Virus record (IMG/VR): IMGVR_UViG_3300030430_002162
Coordinates: 1-29,956 of that record
Source of the DNA: a virus
Direction: 5' to 3' (one strand)
DNA: 29,956 bases
The notes under the pieces were generated by a model. That model searched no databases. It was not told where the DNA came from and saw only the letters and a list, made by a program, of their open reading frames with translations. The position numbers were made by a program, and so were the translations under genes. Positions 17,664 through 22,372 of this stretch are shown piece by piece; within the stretch, counting starts at the first letter, position 1; every line of letters starts with the position of its first letter.

Positions 17664-17913
17664 GCATATTATAGATTACATTTTAAGAAAAACAGAGAAA
17701 AAACCTCTTAAAGAAAGGTGGAGATATAACAAATATGTCAAAGTAGAATATGCAATTGACAAAACAGTATACTTTTGTGATGATTGCGGTCATGTTTGGT
17801 CTTTTGTACCGCATTACGTGGATTTTAGGAAAATGCTAAAATATCCCAAAGGCAACATACCAACTATAGGAAAAAAAAGGAAAAAGTGCACATGGTGCGT
17901 AAATACAAAATAA
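17644..17913 (+). CDS. Small zinc-binding protein, 89 aa
   Basis: Overlaps the replication gene by 20 bases. Two cysteine pairs, FCDDCGHVW (about residues 44-50) and CTWC (about 83-86), with basic residues around them, make a zinc ribbon likely. The rest is rich in Lys, Tyr and Arg. A nucleic acid binding role is plausible. The acetyltransferase gene starts inside its 3' end. No named family. Confidence 0.6.
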   Translation: MSQKNSEHIIDYILRKTEKKPLKERWRYNKYVKVEYAIDKTVYFCDDCGHVWSFVPHYVDFRKMLKYPKGNIPTIGKKRKKCTWCVNTK

Positions 17914-18341
17914 GAAAAGCGATTAGGGATGATGAAAAATGGATAATAGAAATATTCAAAGAAAACAAAAAAATATTAGGTGGTGCAGGTTATGGTAAAT
18001 TACAATGGAAAAGATTTTGGGATAACGAAAAAAACAATGAGCATTGGATTGTGATAGAAGGCGTTTGTTTTTGTCATTATCTAACTAGAATTAAAGACGG
18101 AGTCAATGTCGTCTATGAAATAGCTACTAAATCTTCGGAAAAAAGAAAAGGGTTTGGTAGAAAAATAATAGATTACATTGGAAAGCCAATTTCGTTAAAA
18201 ACCGATTTTGACAGCAAAGAATCTAATTATTTTTATAAAAAAATAGGTTTTAAAGAAACAGGAATTAGCTACACTAAATCAAATAATAAAAAAATGCAAA
18301 ATTATGAATACACAGATATAAAAGGGCTTTTTGATGAGTGA
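17892..18341 (+). CDS. GNAT-family N-acetyltransferase
   Basis: 149 residues from ATG 17892 (a GTG 6 bases earlier is the alternative). Motif A of the GNAT fold is visible: a strand YEIATK, then the acetyl-CoA loop R-K-G-F-G-R (the R/Q-x-x-G-x-G/A pattern) and helix KIIDYIG; near the end SNYFYKKIGFKETG is the usual motif B tail. It should transfer an acetyl group to an amine. It lies just before the DNA hypermodification block in the same operon, so an amine added to the modified base is a possible substrate; a protein or small-molecule target is equally open. Confidence 0.75.
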   Translation: MVRKYKIRKAIRDDEKWIIEIFKENKKILGGAGYGKLQWKRFWDNEKNNEHWIVIEGVCFCHYLTRIKDGVNVVYEIATKSSEKRKGFGRKIIDYIGKPISLKTDFDSKESNYFYKKIGFKETGISYTKSNNKKMQNYEYTDIKGLFDE

Positions 18342-18552
18342 AGATTTAACTTTATTTGACATGAGCCCAAAGGAAAAATTTGGCGAAATAGATAATACTA
18401 AAATAGAATATATTCAACTTGCATTTGAAATAGGAAATAAAAAAATATTCTATCAAAAATGTGAGGATTTATTAAAAATTTATAAATTAGATAATTATTC
18501 TGATTTAATTTATAAGCTGGTAAGGGAGAGGCATGGAAAAATTAAAACTTAA
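18334..18552 (+). CDS. Hypothetical protein before the dioxygenase, 72 aa
   Basis: ATG 18334 overlaps the GNAT stop (8 bases) and the gene overlaps the dioxygenase by 20 bases. The sequence is acidic and helical: MSEDLTLFDMSPKEKFGEID, then EYIQLAFEIGNKKIFYQKCEDLLKIYKLDNYSDLIYKLVRERHG. No domain recognised. Its coupling between the acetyltransferase and the dioxygenase suggests a role in the same process, for example an adaptor, but the sequence does not show this. Confidence 0.6.
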   Translation: MSEDLTLFDMSPKEKFGEIDNTKIEYIQLAFEIGNKKIFYQKCEDLLKIYKLDNYSDLIYKLVRERHGKIKT

Positions 18553-19441
18553 AACAAAAGTGCATGGCAAAAAATTAAATGACATGCTTGGTGTATTTGC
18601 AGAAGAAAAGCACTACGACAAAATAATTAATTATGACTGCGATTGTTACGATTTAAATAATAAGCCAGTTTTATTTTTAAGAAAAAACTATATCAAAGAT
18701 AAGATTTTGCATGATGCTTTTTTAAATTTAGAAAAGGCTGCACAATCGACAAGCAATAGAGGTTCTTCTAGTGGTGGGGTTAGAAAGCACTCGATTACTA
18801 AAGAAGGCAAAAGAACAAAAACATTACAAGTGTTTGACAAAAAAACTGGAGAGGTCGTTAAAGATAAAAGCGGTATTATTGGTTATTTTGACAGATCTGG
18901 GCATTATGATTATTGCAGAACAACAGCTTTCAATATCAACCAAAAAGAAAAATTTGAAAAATCGATGCCTTTAATTAATACAGTCGACCAAGGTTTCAAA
19001 GATATTGTGCCAGAAAGATATAAAAAGCAAAAAGCAATGGTGTTAGCAACAGACCCTAATTATAGAATAGGAGATACAGCCTTTTCAACAATCACTGTTA
19101 ATAAAGACTATAGAACTGCTTTTCATACTGACCAAGGAGATTACCCAAAGGGATTTGGCAATTTGGTTGCTTACTGTAAAGACATTGAGCCGGTTTATCT
19201 TGTTTTGCCTAAATTTAAAGTTGCAGTAAATCTTGAAACTAACGACCTGTTATTAGTTGATGTGCACCAGATTCACGGAAACACAGAAATTATTAAAAAG
19301 AAAAAAGATGGCGTCAGGTTGAGTTTTGTTATGTATTACAGAAATAATATGTATAAGTGTTTACCTCCTAAAAAAGAATTGAAAAGGATTCAGATGAAAC
19401 AAAGACATATTGGGCAAAGATTTATAGCAGGTGAATTGTAA
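18533..19441 (+). CDS. TET/JBP-family 2OG-Fe(II) dioxygenase (base hydroxylase)
   Basis: 302 residues. The C-terminal double-stranded beta-helix holds the iron triad and 2-oxoglutarate site: H198-x-D200 in RTAFHTDQGD, distal H248 in VDVHQIHGN, and R262 in VRLSFVMYYR. The context TITVNKDYRTAFH, GFGNL, LPKFKVAVNLETNDLLLVDVHQIHGNT is that of the TET/JBP group, phage members included, rather than of AlkB or prolyl hydroxylases. It should hydroxylate the methyl of thymine or 5-methylcytosine in DNA. It is followed at once by a glutamine amidotransferase, a DNA-transferase-like protein and a hydroxymethyluracil-kinase-like protein, so thymine is the favoured substrate. A GGSSSGG-like low-complexity stretch sits at ~72-82. 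Confidence 0.85.
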   Translation: MEKLKLKTKVHGKKLNDMLGVFAEEKHYDKIINYDCDCYDLNNKPVLFLRKNYIKDKILHDAFLNLEKAAQSTSNRGSSSGGVRKHSITKEGKRTKTLQVFDKKTGEVVKDKSGIIGYFDRSGHYDYCRTTAFNINQKEKFEKSMPLINTVDQGFKDIVPERYKKQKAMVLATDPNYRIGDTAFSTITVNKDYRTAFHTDQGDYPKGFGNLVAYCKDIEPVYLVLPKFKVAVNLETNDLLLVDVHQIHGNTEIIKKKKDGVRLSFVMYYRNNMYKCLPPKKELKRIQMKQRHIGQRFIAGEL

Positions 19442-20157
19442 TGTGTGGCGTTGCTACTGTTTTAAAAAATAAACCTCTTAATGAAAAAGAAAAAAATATT
19501 TTTATAGAAATAATAAAGCAATCATCAATACGAGGTTTGCATAGTTTTGGGTTTGCTCATATTGAAAAAAATAAAATAAAAATTAAAAAATTTCATTATA
19601 TAGAAAAAGCAATACAGTATTTTAAAAACAAAATTTCTAATGATTTCATTTATCATAACAGATATTCAACAAGCGGAGATTGGAAAGACCATAAAAATAA
19701 TCAGCCTATAAGCTATAAAAACAATGCTTTGGTTTTTAATGGAGTGATAAGCATGAAACAAAAAGGTGAGATGGAAAAAGAATTTAACATAAAAATGAAT
19801 CAAGATAACGATGGTGAAATTTTTTTACAGAACATAGAAAACCCAATGAAGTTTTTAAAAAATAATAAGGTAAGCTTTGCAGGATTATATTTTAAAAAAG
19901 GCAAAATTGAGGTTGTTAGAAATAATTTAAGACCTTTATGGTACTCAATTCAAAGCGAGGCTGTGTTCATAGCCTCTACCAGAGACATTTTAAAAAGGTC
20001 AGGAATTAAAAATTCACATAGCGTAAAACCAAACATAATTTATAAAATAGGTTGTTTTTTTGAACAGAAAAAAAGATTACATAAAATATCATATAGAAAT
20101 GATGAGCAATGGGGATACAGACCCAGCAAACAGTTGCCTGCTTTACATTGCGAATAG
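19441..20157 (+). CDS. Class II glutamine amidotransferase domain protein
   Basis: 238 residues. The N-terminal nucleophile is Cys2 (MCGVATVL; exposed after Met removal). Other class II signatures follow: SSIRGLHSFGFA (R-G-x-x-x-x-G), YHNRYSTSGDWKDHKNNQPI (the R-Y-S-T-x-G / N-Q-P-I motif), LVFNGVI (the oxyanion N-G), and NDGEIFLQ. The ~190-residue glutaminase domain stands without the synthase domain that follows it in AsnB or GlmS. It would release ammonia from glutamine or act on a glutamyl group, here probably on an amino adduct of DNA. TAATG overlap with the dioxygenase. Stand-alone GATase-II domains near TET/JBP genes have been described in phage modification gene clusters, as I recall. 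Confidence 0.8.
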   Translation: MCGVATVLKNKPLNEKEKNIFIEIIKQSSIRGLHSFGFAHIEKNKIKIKKFHYIEKAIQYFKNKISNDFIYHNRYSTSGDWKDHKNNQPISYKNNALVFNGVISMKQKGEMEKEFNIKMNQDNDGEIFLQNIENPMKFLKNNKVSFAGLYFKKGKIEVVRNNLRPLWYSIQSEAVFIASTRDILKRSGIKNSHSVKPNIIYKIGCFFEQKKRLHKISYRNDEQWGYRPSKQLPALHCE

Positions 20158-20959
20158 ATTTGATATAACCCTTGAACAAAGATACTGGTTGTGTTTTTTA
20201 TATTCAACATGTTATTGTGCACCTACAGCTTACTATATATTTAATGAATTTCCAGATTATGAATTAGTAGACTTTAAAAGATTAGAAAGGTGGTGGTATG
20301 AGAATAAAAGCAATTTAATTTTTACAACAGACAAAGCCTGGATCAGAAGCAGAAACCAGTTTGTAGACGTAATAAAAAGTTATACTAAATTAATAGGCAA
20401 AAGCCAAGTACATGCCTATCAAAAGCTTATAGGATCTTCCAAAACAAAAACTTATATAAATTGTTTTAATTTTTTTAAAAATGTGTATCAAATGGGAAGG
20501 TTTAGTCTGTTTATTTATTTAGACGTAATTCACCATGTGACTGGGTTTGTTATGGAGCCAGATGGGTTAGATCTTCAAAATGCCAAATCTTCAAGAAATG
20601 GGCTTTGTTACGCTTTAGGATTAGATAATTTAATAAGTTACAATAGGAAAAAGCCACTATCTAAAAAGCATTACCAAATTTTAGAAAAGGGTTTTTGGGA
20701 AATTTATCGAGAAATCGAAAACAAAAGACCTCATGACACTAATGTATGGGCAATAGAAACATCTTTATGTGCCTACAAAAAACATAAAAAAAATAAAAAA
20801 AGATATGTTGGTTATTATGTCGAAAGGCAAAGAAAAGAAATTAAAAAAATGCAAACTTGGGTTAAGGAAGGTGTAAATTGGTCTCCCTTATGGGATTATC
20901 GAGATGAATATTTTCCTATAAAAATGTTAAAGGAAAAAAGTAATTATGAACTGTTCTAA
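20102..20959 (+). CDS. Putative amino acid:DNA transferase (aGPT-PPlase2/ADDT-like)
   Basis: 285 residues from ATG 20102; ATG 20099 and TTG 20060 are in frame, and all lie inside the amidotransferase gene. Helical, Trp/Tyr/Arg-rich, with NSCLLYIANRFDITLEQRYWLCFLYS, TAYYIFNEFPDYELVD, then WIRSRNQFVDVIKSY and later a conserved-looking SSRNGLCYALGLDN. This resembles, from memory, the alpha-glutamyl/putrescinyl thymine pyrophosphorylase clade 2 (amino-acid:DNA transferase) proteins of hypermodifying phages. Such an enzyme would replace the phosphate of a phosphorylated hydroxymethyl base with an amino compound. The identification needs a profile search; its place between amidotransferase and kinase is strong support. 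Confidence 0.6.
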   Translation: MSNGDTDPANSCLLYIANRFDITLEQRYWLCFLYSTCYCAPTAYYIFNEFPDYELVDFKRLERWWYENKSNLIFTTDKAWIRSRNQFVDVIKSYTKLIGKSQVHAYQKLIGSSKTKTYINCFNFFKNVYQMGRFSLFIYLDVIHHVTGFVMEPDGLDLQNAKSSRNGLCYALGLDNLISYNRKKPLSKKHYQILEKGFWEIYREIENKRPHDTNVWAIETSLCAYKKHKKNKKRYVGYYVERQRKEIKKMQTWVKEGVNWSPLWDYRDEYFPIKMLKEKSNYELF

Positions 20960-21512
20960 AGTTACTATTATAGGTGGAGAGCCTTGCACTGGAAAAAGTA
21001 CTCTTATGAAACAAATTATTAAAAAAGAAAACATAAAAGAAAGGTTTGAGTATAAAAAGTTGTTAAAAGGGCATCAAAATGAAAACATAGTAATAGTTGG
21101 GTTGTATGAAGATCAGCTTTTCGATGGAACAGATAGGCTCAGCATGGCAGTTCAACCTGTTTTCATAGAGTACCTAGAACAACAAAAACCTAAAAAACAT
21201 ATTATTTTAGAAGGGGATAGGTTATTTAAAAAAACTTTGTTTGACTACATATTAAAAACAGATATATTCTTTAGGTTAATTATACTCGAATGCTCTGAAA
21301 ACATTAAAAAATTTAGGCACATTGCGAGAAAAGACGAGCAAAGCCAAAAATGGTTGGATTCTAAAAAAACTACGATACAAAATATAAAAAATAAATATAG
21401 TCACAATTTATTCAGGAACGAAGACATGTCTGATTGTGACAGGATAATAGAATATATTTTATCTTTAGATAACAAAAAAGCAACTGACCCTAGTCAATTT
21501 AAATTATTTTAA
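20946..21512 (+). CDS. P-loop kinase, 5-hydroxymethyluracil DNA kinase-like
   Basis: 188 residues. Walker A is GGEPCTGKST (residues 10-19; K17, S18), and a Walker B-type strand HIILEGDRLF follows. Between them is LFDGTDRLSMAVQP, which with the EGDR box is what I recall as the hallmark of 5-hmdU DNA kinases of hypermodifying phages. It should transfer phosphate to the hydroxymethyl group made by the dioxygenase, activating it for substitution. It overlaps the transferase-like gene by 14 bases and is the last gene of the operon; a hairpin starts at its stop codon. A nucleoside or nucleotide kinase is the alternative, less likely with these neighbours. Confidence 0.75.
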   Translation: MNCSKVTIIGGEPCTGKSTLMKQIIKKENIKERFEYKKLLKGHQNENIVIVGLYEDQLFDGTDRLSMAVQPVFIEYLEQQKPKKHIILEGDRLFKKTLFDYILKTDIFFRLIILECSENIKKFRHIARKDEQSQKWLDSKKTTIQNIKNKYSHNLFRNEDMSDCDRIIEYILSLDNKKATDPSQFKLF

Positions 21513-21531
21513 AGGGTTCACTTACCCTTTA
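21510..21531 (+). terminator. Hairpin at the end of the early operon
   Basis: TAAAGGGT-TCACTT-ACCCTTTA: an 8-bp perfect stem with a 6-base loop that starts in the stop codon of the kinase gene. It has only a short T stretch on the 3' side (inside the stem) and no long U tail, so it may be a weak terminator or an RNA end stabiliser. It separates the early operon from the next promoter-leader. Confidence 0.5.
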
Positions 21532-21548: not shown

Positions 21549-21598
21549 TATAAATTGTAAGATCAGTCATGAATATTAAAACAAAAATGGAGTTTAAA
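21549..21598 (+). promoter_or_regulatory. Second promoter-leader candidate
   Basis: TATAAA at 21549-21554 could serve as -10, with no good -35. The leader contains TGAATATTAAAA (21570-21581) and TGGAG, with the first T 29 bases before ATG 21599, exactly as at 13964-13993. The conserved leader and its spacing suggest common control or a common 5' end of the two transcripts. Confidence 0.45.
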
Positions 21599-22372
21599 AT
21601 GACATCAAACGAAGTAATCAAATTAAAAGACAAAATGCAAAAGTTGCTTAACCACGCAACAAGCGCAGAAAACATTGGTAATCAAGCTGAGGCAGAAGCT
21701 TTTATGAAAAAGCTCAATAAACTTTGTTTACAGCATAAAATAGCCATGACTGAAATACAGGCTTTTGACCCTGAAAATTCAGATGAAAGCATCACAGACC
21801 AAATGGTTGATAAGTATGAAAATGGTTTACCTATTGTTAGCAGAAGGCAAGCAATCGTAGAAAGATTGGCGAGTTGTATTGCAAGAGCAAATAACTGCAC
21901 TTTTCTTATTAGCAGGGGTTCTAATGATATATGGTTTGCAGGAAGAGATCAGGATAGAAAATTTGCTATCCACATGTTCTCTTACGCTTGGAAATCAATG
22001 CTAGAAGATTGCAATAGAGAGCAGAAAAAAACATATTATCATTTTAAAAAGCTAGGTATGTTGGAACAAGCTAAGGGTTTCAAAGCTTCTTTTAAGAAAG
22101 GTTTTGTCAGTGCAATAGAAGATAGATTACATGAAGCTAGAGAAGAAGTCAAAGAGACTGTTGATGAAAAGACTTTTGCTTTAATTACGACAAACCAATT
22201 AGTTGCTGTAAGAGACTATGTGGCAAACAAATACGGAAAGGGCAAAGCTTCTTATGTAAGGGGTCAAAGTTCCAGCAATGAGCATGGTTATAGGGCAGGT
22301 CAAAATTCAGGTAAAAGCGTAAACTTGCACGTAGGAAACATTAGCAGTTCTAAACCTAGATTATTAAATTAA
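21599..22372 (+). CDS. DUF2786-like protein
   Basis: The start is ATG 21599 with GGAG 6 bases upstream; upstream in-frame ATGs at 21569 and 21587 lie in the leader element shared with 13964. 257 residues. Residues ~8-50 (KLKDKMQKLLNHATSAENIGNQAEAEAFMKKLNKLCLQHKI) fit the DUF2786 N-terminal helical motif (KLLxLA...GNxxEAExAxxKAxxLxxxHxI). The rest is helical with YAWKSMLEDCNREQKK and a C-terminal GYRAGQNSGKSVNLH. Phage members of this group are thought to be early DNA-associated proteins, but the function is unknown. It has its own leader and a strong hairpin after it, so it forms a single-gene transcript. Confidence 0.7.
   Translation: MTSNEVIKLKDKMQKLLNHATSAENIGNQAEAEAFMKKLNKLCLQHKIAMTEIQAFDPENSDESITDQMVDKYENGLPIVSRRQAIVERLASCIARANNCTFLISRGSNDIWFAGRDQDRKFAIHMFSYAWKSMLEDCNREQKKTYYHFKKLGMLEQAKGFKASFKKGFVSAIEDRLHEAREEVKETVDEKTFALITTNQLVAVRDYVANKYGKGKASYVRGQSSSNEHGYRAGQNSGKSVNLHVGNISSSKPRLLN

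Follow-up and report, generated by a model that had tools for sequence, protein, structure and literature searches.

A predicted thymine hypermodification operon with a putative glutamine-fed DNA transferase in a small environmental phage

Introduction

Which modified base does a phage make with an operon that joins a TET/JBP dioxygenase and a kinase to a stand-alone glutamine amidotransferase (GAT), and where does its nitrogen come from? The operon lies in IMG/VR record IMGVR_UViG_3300030430_002162, of which the whole stretch analysed here (29,956 bases, 32.7% GC; the window) carries terminase and major head genes and belongs to a small environmental phage; none of the window genes examined was recognised as a DNA polymerase. 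That the window holds an operon for oxidative DNA hypermodification is, in our view, almost certain. The explanation that best accounts for the whole, and which we hold with moderate confidence, is post-replicative hypermodification of thymine employing an ADDT-superfamily DNA transferase that is fed by the GAT.

Results

The operon and its distribution

The operon (17886-21512) comprises six genes that are coupled by overlaps, with the stop codon of the GNAT gene overlapping the start of the adaptor gene. An earlier note on this DNA had described four overlapping genes at 18533-21512; all four open reading frames (ORFs) are confirmed, but the extent requires revision, as the operon also includes the GNAT and adaptor genes. 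The features are as follows.

17886 to 18341, plus strand: GNAT-family acetyltransferase (predicted amine acylation); start GTG 17886 or ATG 17892
18334 to 18552, plus strand: 72-residue adaptor; N-terminal clamp-motif-like EDLTLF and a domain like the C terminus of ParB-like proteins
18533 to 19441, plus strand: TET/JBP Fe(II)/2-oxoglutarate (2OG) dioxygenase, predicted thymine 5-hydroxylase on DNA (PF12851, conserved residues)
19441 to 20157, plus strand: stand-alone class II (N-terminal nucleophile) GAT, predicted ammonia source for ADDT
20060 to 20959, plus strand: ADDT-superfamily DNA transferase with a TTG start; predicted reaction, displacement of phosphate from 5-phosphomethyl-2'-deoxyuridine (5-PmdU) (PF18724, AlphaFold2 fold match)
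20946 to 21512, plus strand: P-loop kinase (Ploopntkinase3), predicted 5-hydroxymethyl-deoxyuridine (dU) DNA kinase (PF18751, context)
21510 to 21531, plus strand: terminator-like hairpin at the operon end (consensus match only)

The same gene set was found again in dozens of divergent phages, far beyond chance. Loci for comparison came from two protein-profile scans of viral contigs, one of genomes and a few named phages.

ADDT and GAT

The ADDT protein matches Pfam PF18724 (E 3e-15, 57 bits against a cut-off of 26.2). Its homologues align 5' of the ATG near 20102, and the homologue in locus L015 has an ATG at the position of a TTG in the window; the gene thus very probably starts at TTG 20060, giving a 98-bp overlap with the GAT gene, rather than at 20102 as formerly given. 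An AlphaFold2 model built from 46 homologues (predicted local distance difference test, pLDDT, 95.7) has a sole significant match in the PDB, PaMx11 gp46 (8z2m/8z2n; Foldseek E 9.7e-4, probability 1.00, TM 0.63), the PDB title of which is 5-PmdU glycinyltransferase (PUGT). With gp46, VIA gives Z 19.5 and a root-mean-square deviation of 3.1 over 247 aligned residues at 12% identity, the next match having Z 10.7; the lower matches (Z 8-9) are 8-oxoguanine DNA glycosylases. Comparison of the ADDT profile with the PDB by sequence gave nothing meaningful, gp46 surfacing by fold search only. An E-T-x-L-C-x-[WY]-K segment is common to the window ADDT and gp46. The fold match and the common segment point to a phosphomethylated pyrimidine as the substrate, and it is very likely, as judged from the model, that ADDT acts on a phosphomethyl base in DNA. 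The earlier proposal of an amino-acid:DNA transferase in the cluster is supported by the third gene, with its PF18724 match and 5-PmdU glycinyltransferase fold.

The window GAT scores slightly below the cut-off for Pfam GATase_6 (E 8.6e-6, 26.2 bits; cut-off 27), and the profile of its aligned family matches the PurF glutaminase domain (8e-10). The family keeps the Met1-Cys2 start, R74, N100-G101 and D124, and the window protein is without a synthase domain; the conserved catalytic residues and the PurF alignment agree with the earlier assignment as a Cys2 class II amidotransferase lacking such a domain. Class II residues of this kind bind and hydrolyse free glutamine, as established for PurF and GlmS. 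The window GAT has some 35 C-terminal residues that most homologues lack, encoded across the start of ADDT in another frame (20060-20157).

An ADDT-family gene is present in 100 of the 106 GAT loci, a proportion biased to close relatives because the GAT scans kept the best 80 of about 590 confirmed matches, and in which several loci are the same contig. The six without ADDT are two at contig ends (L035, L148), two of the LUZ24 type (L008, L009), one with a distant GAT (L079) and a 3.6-kb fragment (L161). A Mantel comparison of distance matrices across 39 non-redundant complete cassettes gave r 0.938 for GAT and ADDT (permutation maximum 0.365), with a partial r of 0.88 after removing TET and kinase; the partial r for TET and kinase was 0.69. 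The cross terms of neighbouring genes are near zero, at -0.02 for ADDT-kinase despite gene overlap and -0.13 for TET-GAT despite adjacency (GAT-kinase is modest, at 0.28), so that adjacency does not cause the GAT-ADDT correlation. When GNAT was included, partial values were 0.65 for GNAT-ADDT and 0.58 for GAT-ADDT. This pattern implies two inherited units, TET with kinase and GAT with ADDT (and GNAT).

GAT-linked sequences also cluster on the ADDT tree, with 3 label changes against a shuffled mean of 15.1, some long branches being placed unsurely. Within the main group, ADDTs without GAT have 360-400 residues, including a C-terminal extension that is absent or changed in most GAT-linked ADDTs. 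A longer GAT of LUZ24/tf phages was considered as a candidate GAT-ADDT fusion and rejected, its C-terminal part not being ADDT.

As the regular, co-inherited partner of ADDT, the GAT would fit an ammonia supplier, and we consider it probable from sequence comparison that it supplies NH3 to ADDT: the GAT keeps the free-glutamine residues and has no synthase domain of its own, and ADDT is the sole candidate for C-N bond formation in the operon. The role given to the glutaminase in the earlier note, trimming of an attached amino acid, is, on the same grounds of regular co-inheritance, probably wrong.

TET/JBP dioxygenase and its target base

The dioxygenase matches PF12851 (Tet_JBP; E 1.3e-21, 76.9 bits against a cut-off of 34.9), and H198, D200 and H248 of the HxD...H iron triad, together with the 2OG-binding R262, are unchanged across seven diverse homologues, consistent with the initial identification from these residues. 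A C5-methyltransferase as a regular component of the system was rejected, one being present in just 3 of 53 distinct GAT-cassette records and none in the window. The scarcity of such enzymes, the match of ADDT to gp46 and the gene content of sister phages (below) favour thymine rather than 5-methylcytosine as the target, a choice in which we have high confidence. Thymidylate-synthase-type dUMP hydroxymethylases as a source of 5-hydroxymethyluracil were absent from all 19 records searched, so TET likely supplies the hydroxymethyl group.

Five loci (L118, L145, L147, L155, L162) have GAT-ADDT, in some cases with kinase, without TET and with a gene that groups with L155:6235-7521. The L155 gene product looks like a radical SAM protein by its cysteine motif, without a Pfam match, and perhaps such genes provide an alternative first step. 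L162, from a Prevotella metagenome-assembled genome (237-kb contig CALUGQ010000002.1, possibly a prophage or large phage), holds GAT-ADDT-kinase, two ParB-like genes and the radical-SAM-like gene.

Kinase

The kinase matches Ploopntkinase3 (PF18751; E 4e-7, 30.2 bits against a cut-off of 27), a family of P-loop kinases reported in connection with phage hypermodification, and carries GTDRLSMAVQP and EGDRL; PF18747 (HMUD2) did not match it. Its AlphaFold2 model (pLDDT 89.9) has a generic P-loop fold like that of nucleoside monophosphate (NMP) kinases, and structure and sequence searches returned no specific solved relative. The modest Pfam score and the gene context lead us to predict that it phosphorylates 5-hydroxymethyl-dU in DNA. 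The DNA kinase of the earlier note thus gains from the match above cut-off and the co-divergence with TET, but the generic fold does not separate it from nucleotide kinases. The note had also considered that 20102-20959 and 20946-21512 might match unrelated families; profile searches gave PF18724 (ADDT) and PF18751 (Ploopntkinase3).

Elsewhere, a kinase-family protein with an N-terminal low-molecular-weight phosphatase-like domain (L141:3211-4257) adjoins an Amidoligase_2 gene and GAT-ADDT, and in L109, L111, L124, L129-L134 and L139, with the order kinase2-GAT-ADDT-TET, a 152-residue P-loop protein replaces the usual kinase. Kinase homologues labelled 'terminase small subunit' and TET homologues labelled 'SNF2 DNA repair protein' (Cr30, NC_025422.1, gp114, and phrog_800) look like misannotations.

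Sister phages with a different middle module

Sister phage L014 is 82% identical to the window in terminase, 78% in TET and 61% in kinase, and lacks GAT, ADDT and GNAT together, even though the window GNAT sits on the other side of TET. Between its TET and kinase genes are a gp46 homologue (PDB 8z2m, 5e-14; 25qc, 3.5e-19) and a homologue of a flavin-dependent lyase (8z2o, 2e-9); the order TET-glycinyltransferase-lyase-kinase occurs in seven loci. In L018, which has a terminase fragment 89% identical to that of the window, GAT and GNAT are absent and the ADDT is different. The gp46 and gp47 enzymes of PaMx11 reportedly turn 5-PmdU into glycinyl-T and then into 5-aminomethyl-dU. Most simply, GAT with ADDT would reach that aminomethyl base by a second route, in which glutamine rather than glycine provides the nitrogen. 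The title of Wen et al. 2024, as cited in PMC11946847, links gp46/gp47 enzymes to Nalpha-GlyT and 5-NmdU. That thymine is hydroxylated and then phosphorylated, as the earlier note had it, is probably right, given the 5-PmdU enzyme fold of ADDT and the gp46 and flavin-lyase genes in the sister slot.

A DUF2786/DUF7168 protein is encoded directly 3' of the operon terminator (21569-22372); L002, L003 and L014 retain its gene, which did not turn up in the stretches of L015, L016 and L018.

GNAT acetyltransferase

The window GNAT scores slightly below the cut-off for Acetyltransf_7 (E 1e-5, 26.3 bits; cut-off 27), as do its homologues, and is homologous to a GNAT sited between GAT and ADDT in more than 40 loci. 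No locus has this GNAT without GAT, and several cassettes have GAT and ADDT without GNAT, a distribution that fits GNAT capping the product. Acetylaminomethyluracil as the final product is a tentative proposal, to which we give slightly less than an even chance.

Adaptor and clamp-binding-like motifs

The adaptor domain aligns with the C terminus of ParB-like proteins (hhalign probability 94.9, E 4.6e-8; unrelated control, probability 0.1), and other cassettes encode ParB-like proteins with an adaptor-like C terminus from a gene upstream of TET. The adaptor N terminus reads EDLTLF in the window and QSTLF or QETLF in relatives, a QxTLF start being frequent in kinase cassettes. The window kinase ends in a clamp-binding-like SQFKLF (Q-x-x-L-F), and the ADDT C terminus, NYELF, resembles the clamp motif; the bacterial beta-clamp consensus is QL(S/D)LF, usually C-terminal (PMC9690074; PMC3716654). 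C-terminal Q-x-x-[LM]-F occurs in 10 of 57 non-redundant kinases and 14 of 23 TAGT glycosyltransferases, against 0.08% expected. An enzyme with a clamp motif is present in 37 of the 43 loci with a 72-75-residue ORF before TET (including three small ORFs that the profile had labelled ParB) and in none of 94 with a ParB-like gene there; thinned by TET similarity, which removes shared ancestry only partly, the counts are 14/17 and 0/28 (Fisher 4e-9).

These sequences suggest an adaptor domain that comes linked to one of two partners, a ParB-like domain or a clamp-binding peptide. Tethering of the modification enzymes to the clamp is a likely prediction, and suggests that modification is coupled to replication. 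The acetyltransferase, adaptor and clamp-binding-like motifs had been missed in the earlier note, the remaining pathway reading of which largely stands. Among other proteins, a glycosyltransferase (L021:4179-4919) ends in TQIGLF and a C5-methyltransferase (L021:5767-6435) in KQIELF, both being TET-linked, and an N6/N4-methylase of Nonlabens phage P12024L also has a clamp-like end, SQQTLF.

Discussion

Identities, linkage and co-divergence are computed here, and from this starting point we infer every reaction. In the proposed pathway, TET would hydroxylate thymine in DNA to 5-hydroxymethyluracil, which the kinase would phosphorylate to 5-phosphomethyluracil; the GAT would hydrolyse glutamine and hand NH3 to ADDT, which would displace the phosphate to give 5-aminomethyluracil, and GNAT may then acetylate the amine to 5-acetylaminomethyluracil. 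GAT and ADDT, with or without GNAT, would form a swappable middle between a constant TET and kinase, one step replacing the glycinyltransferase and flavin-dependent lyase of the PaMx11 type. Through the adaptor and the C-terminal QxxLF, TET and kinase would probably be anchored at the host beta clamp, such that nascent DNA is modified. In its fullest form, which we put forward tentatively and at a little below even chances, GAT and ADDT would constitute a glutamine-dependent DNA amidotransferase acting on the thymine methyl group in intact DNA, and TET and kinase would reach newly made DNA through exchangeable adaptors, in which one shared docking domain carries either a clamp-binding peptide or a ParB-like domain.

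Several points weigh against this pathway. ADDT-family enzymes use amino acids, and we know of no precedent for NH3 as the nucleophile of one. The kinase fold fits a DNA-base kinase and nucleotide kinases alike, no GAT-ADDT fusion was found among 160 loci, and most of the contigs compared are fragments. TET-less GAT-ADDT loci occur, five of them holding the candidate radical SAM protein, and therefore the first step may vary. Some TET relatives accompany C5-methyltransferases, with L021 comprising TET, TAGT and a C5-methyltransferase, and the Melnitz record an annotated HhaI-type methylase that adjoins TET and a homologous kinase; TET relatives can therefore differ in target. No assay of any enzyme from this cassette was found in the literature.

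The use of glycine by the characterised relative PaMx11 gp46, according to its PDB title, raises the alternative that ADDT attaches a whole amino acid to 5-phosphomethyluracil, as in ViI and PaMx11, with the GAT acting later, e.g. by deamidating an attached glutamine, and GNAT acetylating the adduct. We consider this unlikely, since the GAT keeps residues for free glutamine, into which a glutamine tied by its alpha-amine should fit poorly, and deamidation would be a costly path to glutamate. The co-divergence of GAT and ADDT is, moreover, far above that expected of an optional tailoring enzyme, whereas GNAT is the optional one.

Less probable still is that TET oxidises methyltransferase-made 5-methylcytosine, which the kinase and GAT-ADDT then turn into a hypermodified cytosine. 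A general link of phage TETs to 5-methylcytosine oxidation (PMC11404850) and the L021 and Melnitz arrangements accord with such a route, but the near absence of C5-methyltransferases from GAT cassettes, including that of the window, does not, and ADDT matches a 5-PmdU enzyme, with the gp46 and flavin-lyase homologues of the sister phages acting on a uracil base. The generic NMP-kinase-like fold could also indicate a salvage kinase in an assembly in which GAT and GNAT serve an unrelated small molecule and TET alone modifies DNA. This we regard as very improbable, because the kinase co-diverges with TET and stays in the TET cassette across several different middle modules, ADDT has a DNA-transferase fold, and GNAT never occurs without GAT.

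Cassettes of TET, transferase and kinase are already known, and what looks new in the glutamine-fed pathway is its route. The final base, which the earlier note took to be possibly new, may be a known molecule, 5-aminomethyl-dU or its acetyl derivative. The window ADDT shares the gp46 fold and, we propose, the 5-PmdU substrate with PaMx11 gp46/gp47 (PDB 8z2m/8z2n, 8z2o/8z79); PaMx11, however, employs a transferase and flavin lyase in place of GAT and ADDT (and GNAT), and in the window the hydroxymethyl group is assigned to TET acting on DNA. Ackermannviridae (Salmonella ViI type, 5-NeOmdU; PMC6449724) likewise have an ADDT homologue and a 5-hydroxymethyl-dU DNA kinase step, but the ADDTs examined there are longer, at about 400 residues, without a labelled GAT nearby and next to a kinase of another family, HMUD2 (PF18747). 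TET, an ADDT- or aGPT-type transferase and kinase are combined, as in the window, in Rhodococcus phage Tonitrus (PMC11955845) and in Caulobacter phage Cr30; Tonitrus has a ParB-like gene with no GAT or GNAT reported, and Cr30 has neither in the stretch examined, its cassette genes being scattered over several kb.

A glutamine amidotransferase domain also serves phage DNA modification in Gat-QueC of 7-deazaguanine phages (PMC6884629), where, in contrast with the stand-alone, ADDT-linked GAT of the window, it forms a fusion with QueC and dG+ is made. LUZ24/tf phages have a related GAT domain (GATase_6) in a longer protein beside amidoligase and RimK-like genes, without ADDT. With respect to the clamp, T4 alpha-glucosyltransferase binds the gp45 clamp, although this binding is not the main cause of its dominance (PMC13216743). 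The likeness is that of a phage DNA-modifying enzyme with a sliding clamp, T4 using its own clamp and a cytosine glucosyltransferase, whereas the peptides described here are short C-terminal QxxLF sequences that conform to the bacterial clamp consensus and are carried by kinases, glycosyltransferases and some methyltransferases. In literature coverage that did not include the central papers (Iyer 2013, Lee 2018, Lee 2022, Wen 2024), neither the GAT(+GNAT) module nor the clamp/ParB split was found described, and no report connected a glutamine amidotransferase with thymidine hypermodification, which is weak evidence of novelty.

If correct, the proposed pathway would take glutamine nitrogen directly into an aminated base of duplex DNA, with its genes in many uncultured phages, and the GAT-ADDT pair would serve to place a reactive amine at 5-hydroxymethyluracil sites in DNA. 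The split between clamp and ParB-like adaptors suggests how small phages that seemingly rely on the host replisome modify DNA during its synthesis, and could extend to TET cassettes generally, including those with glycosyltransferases.

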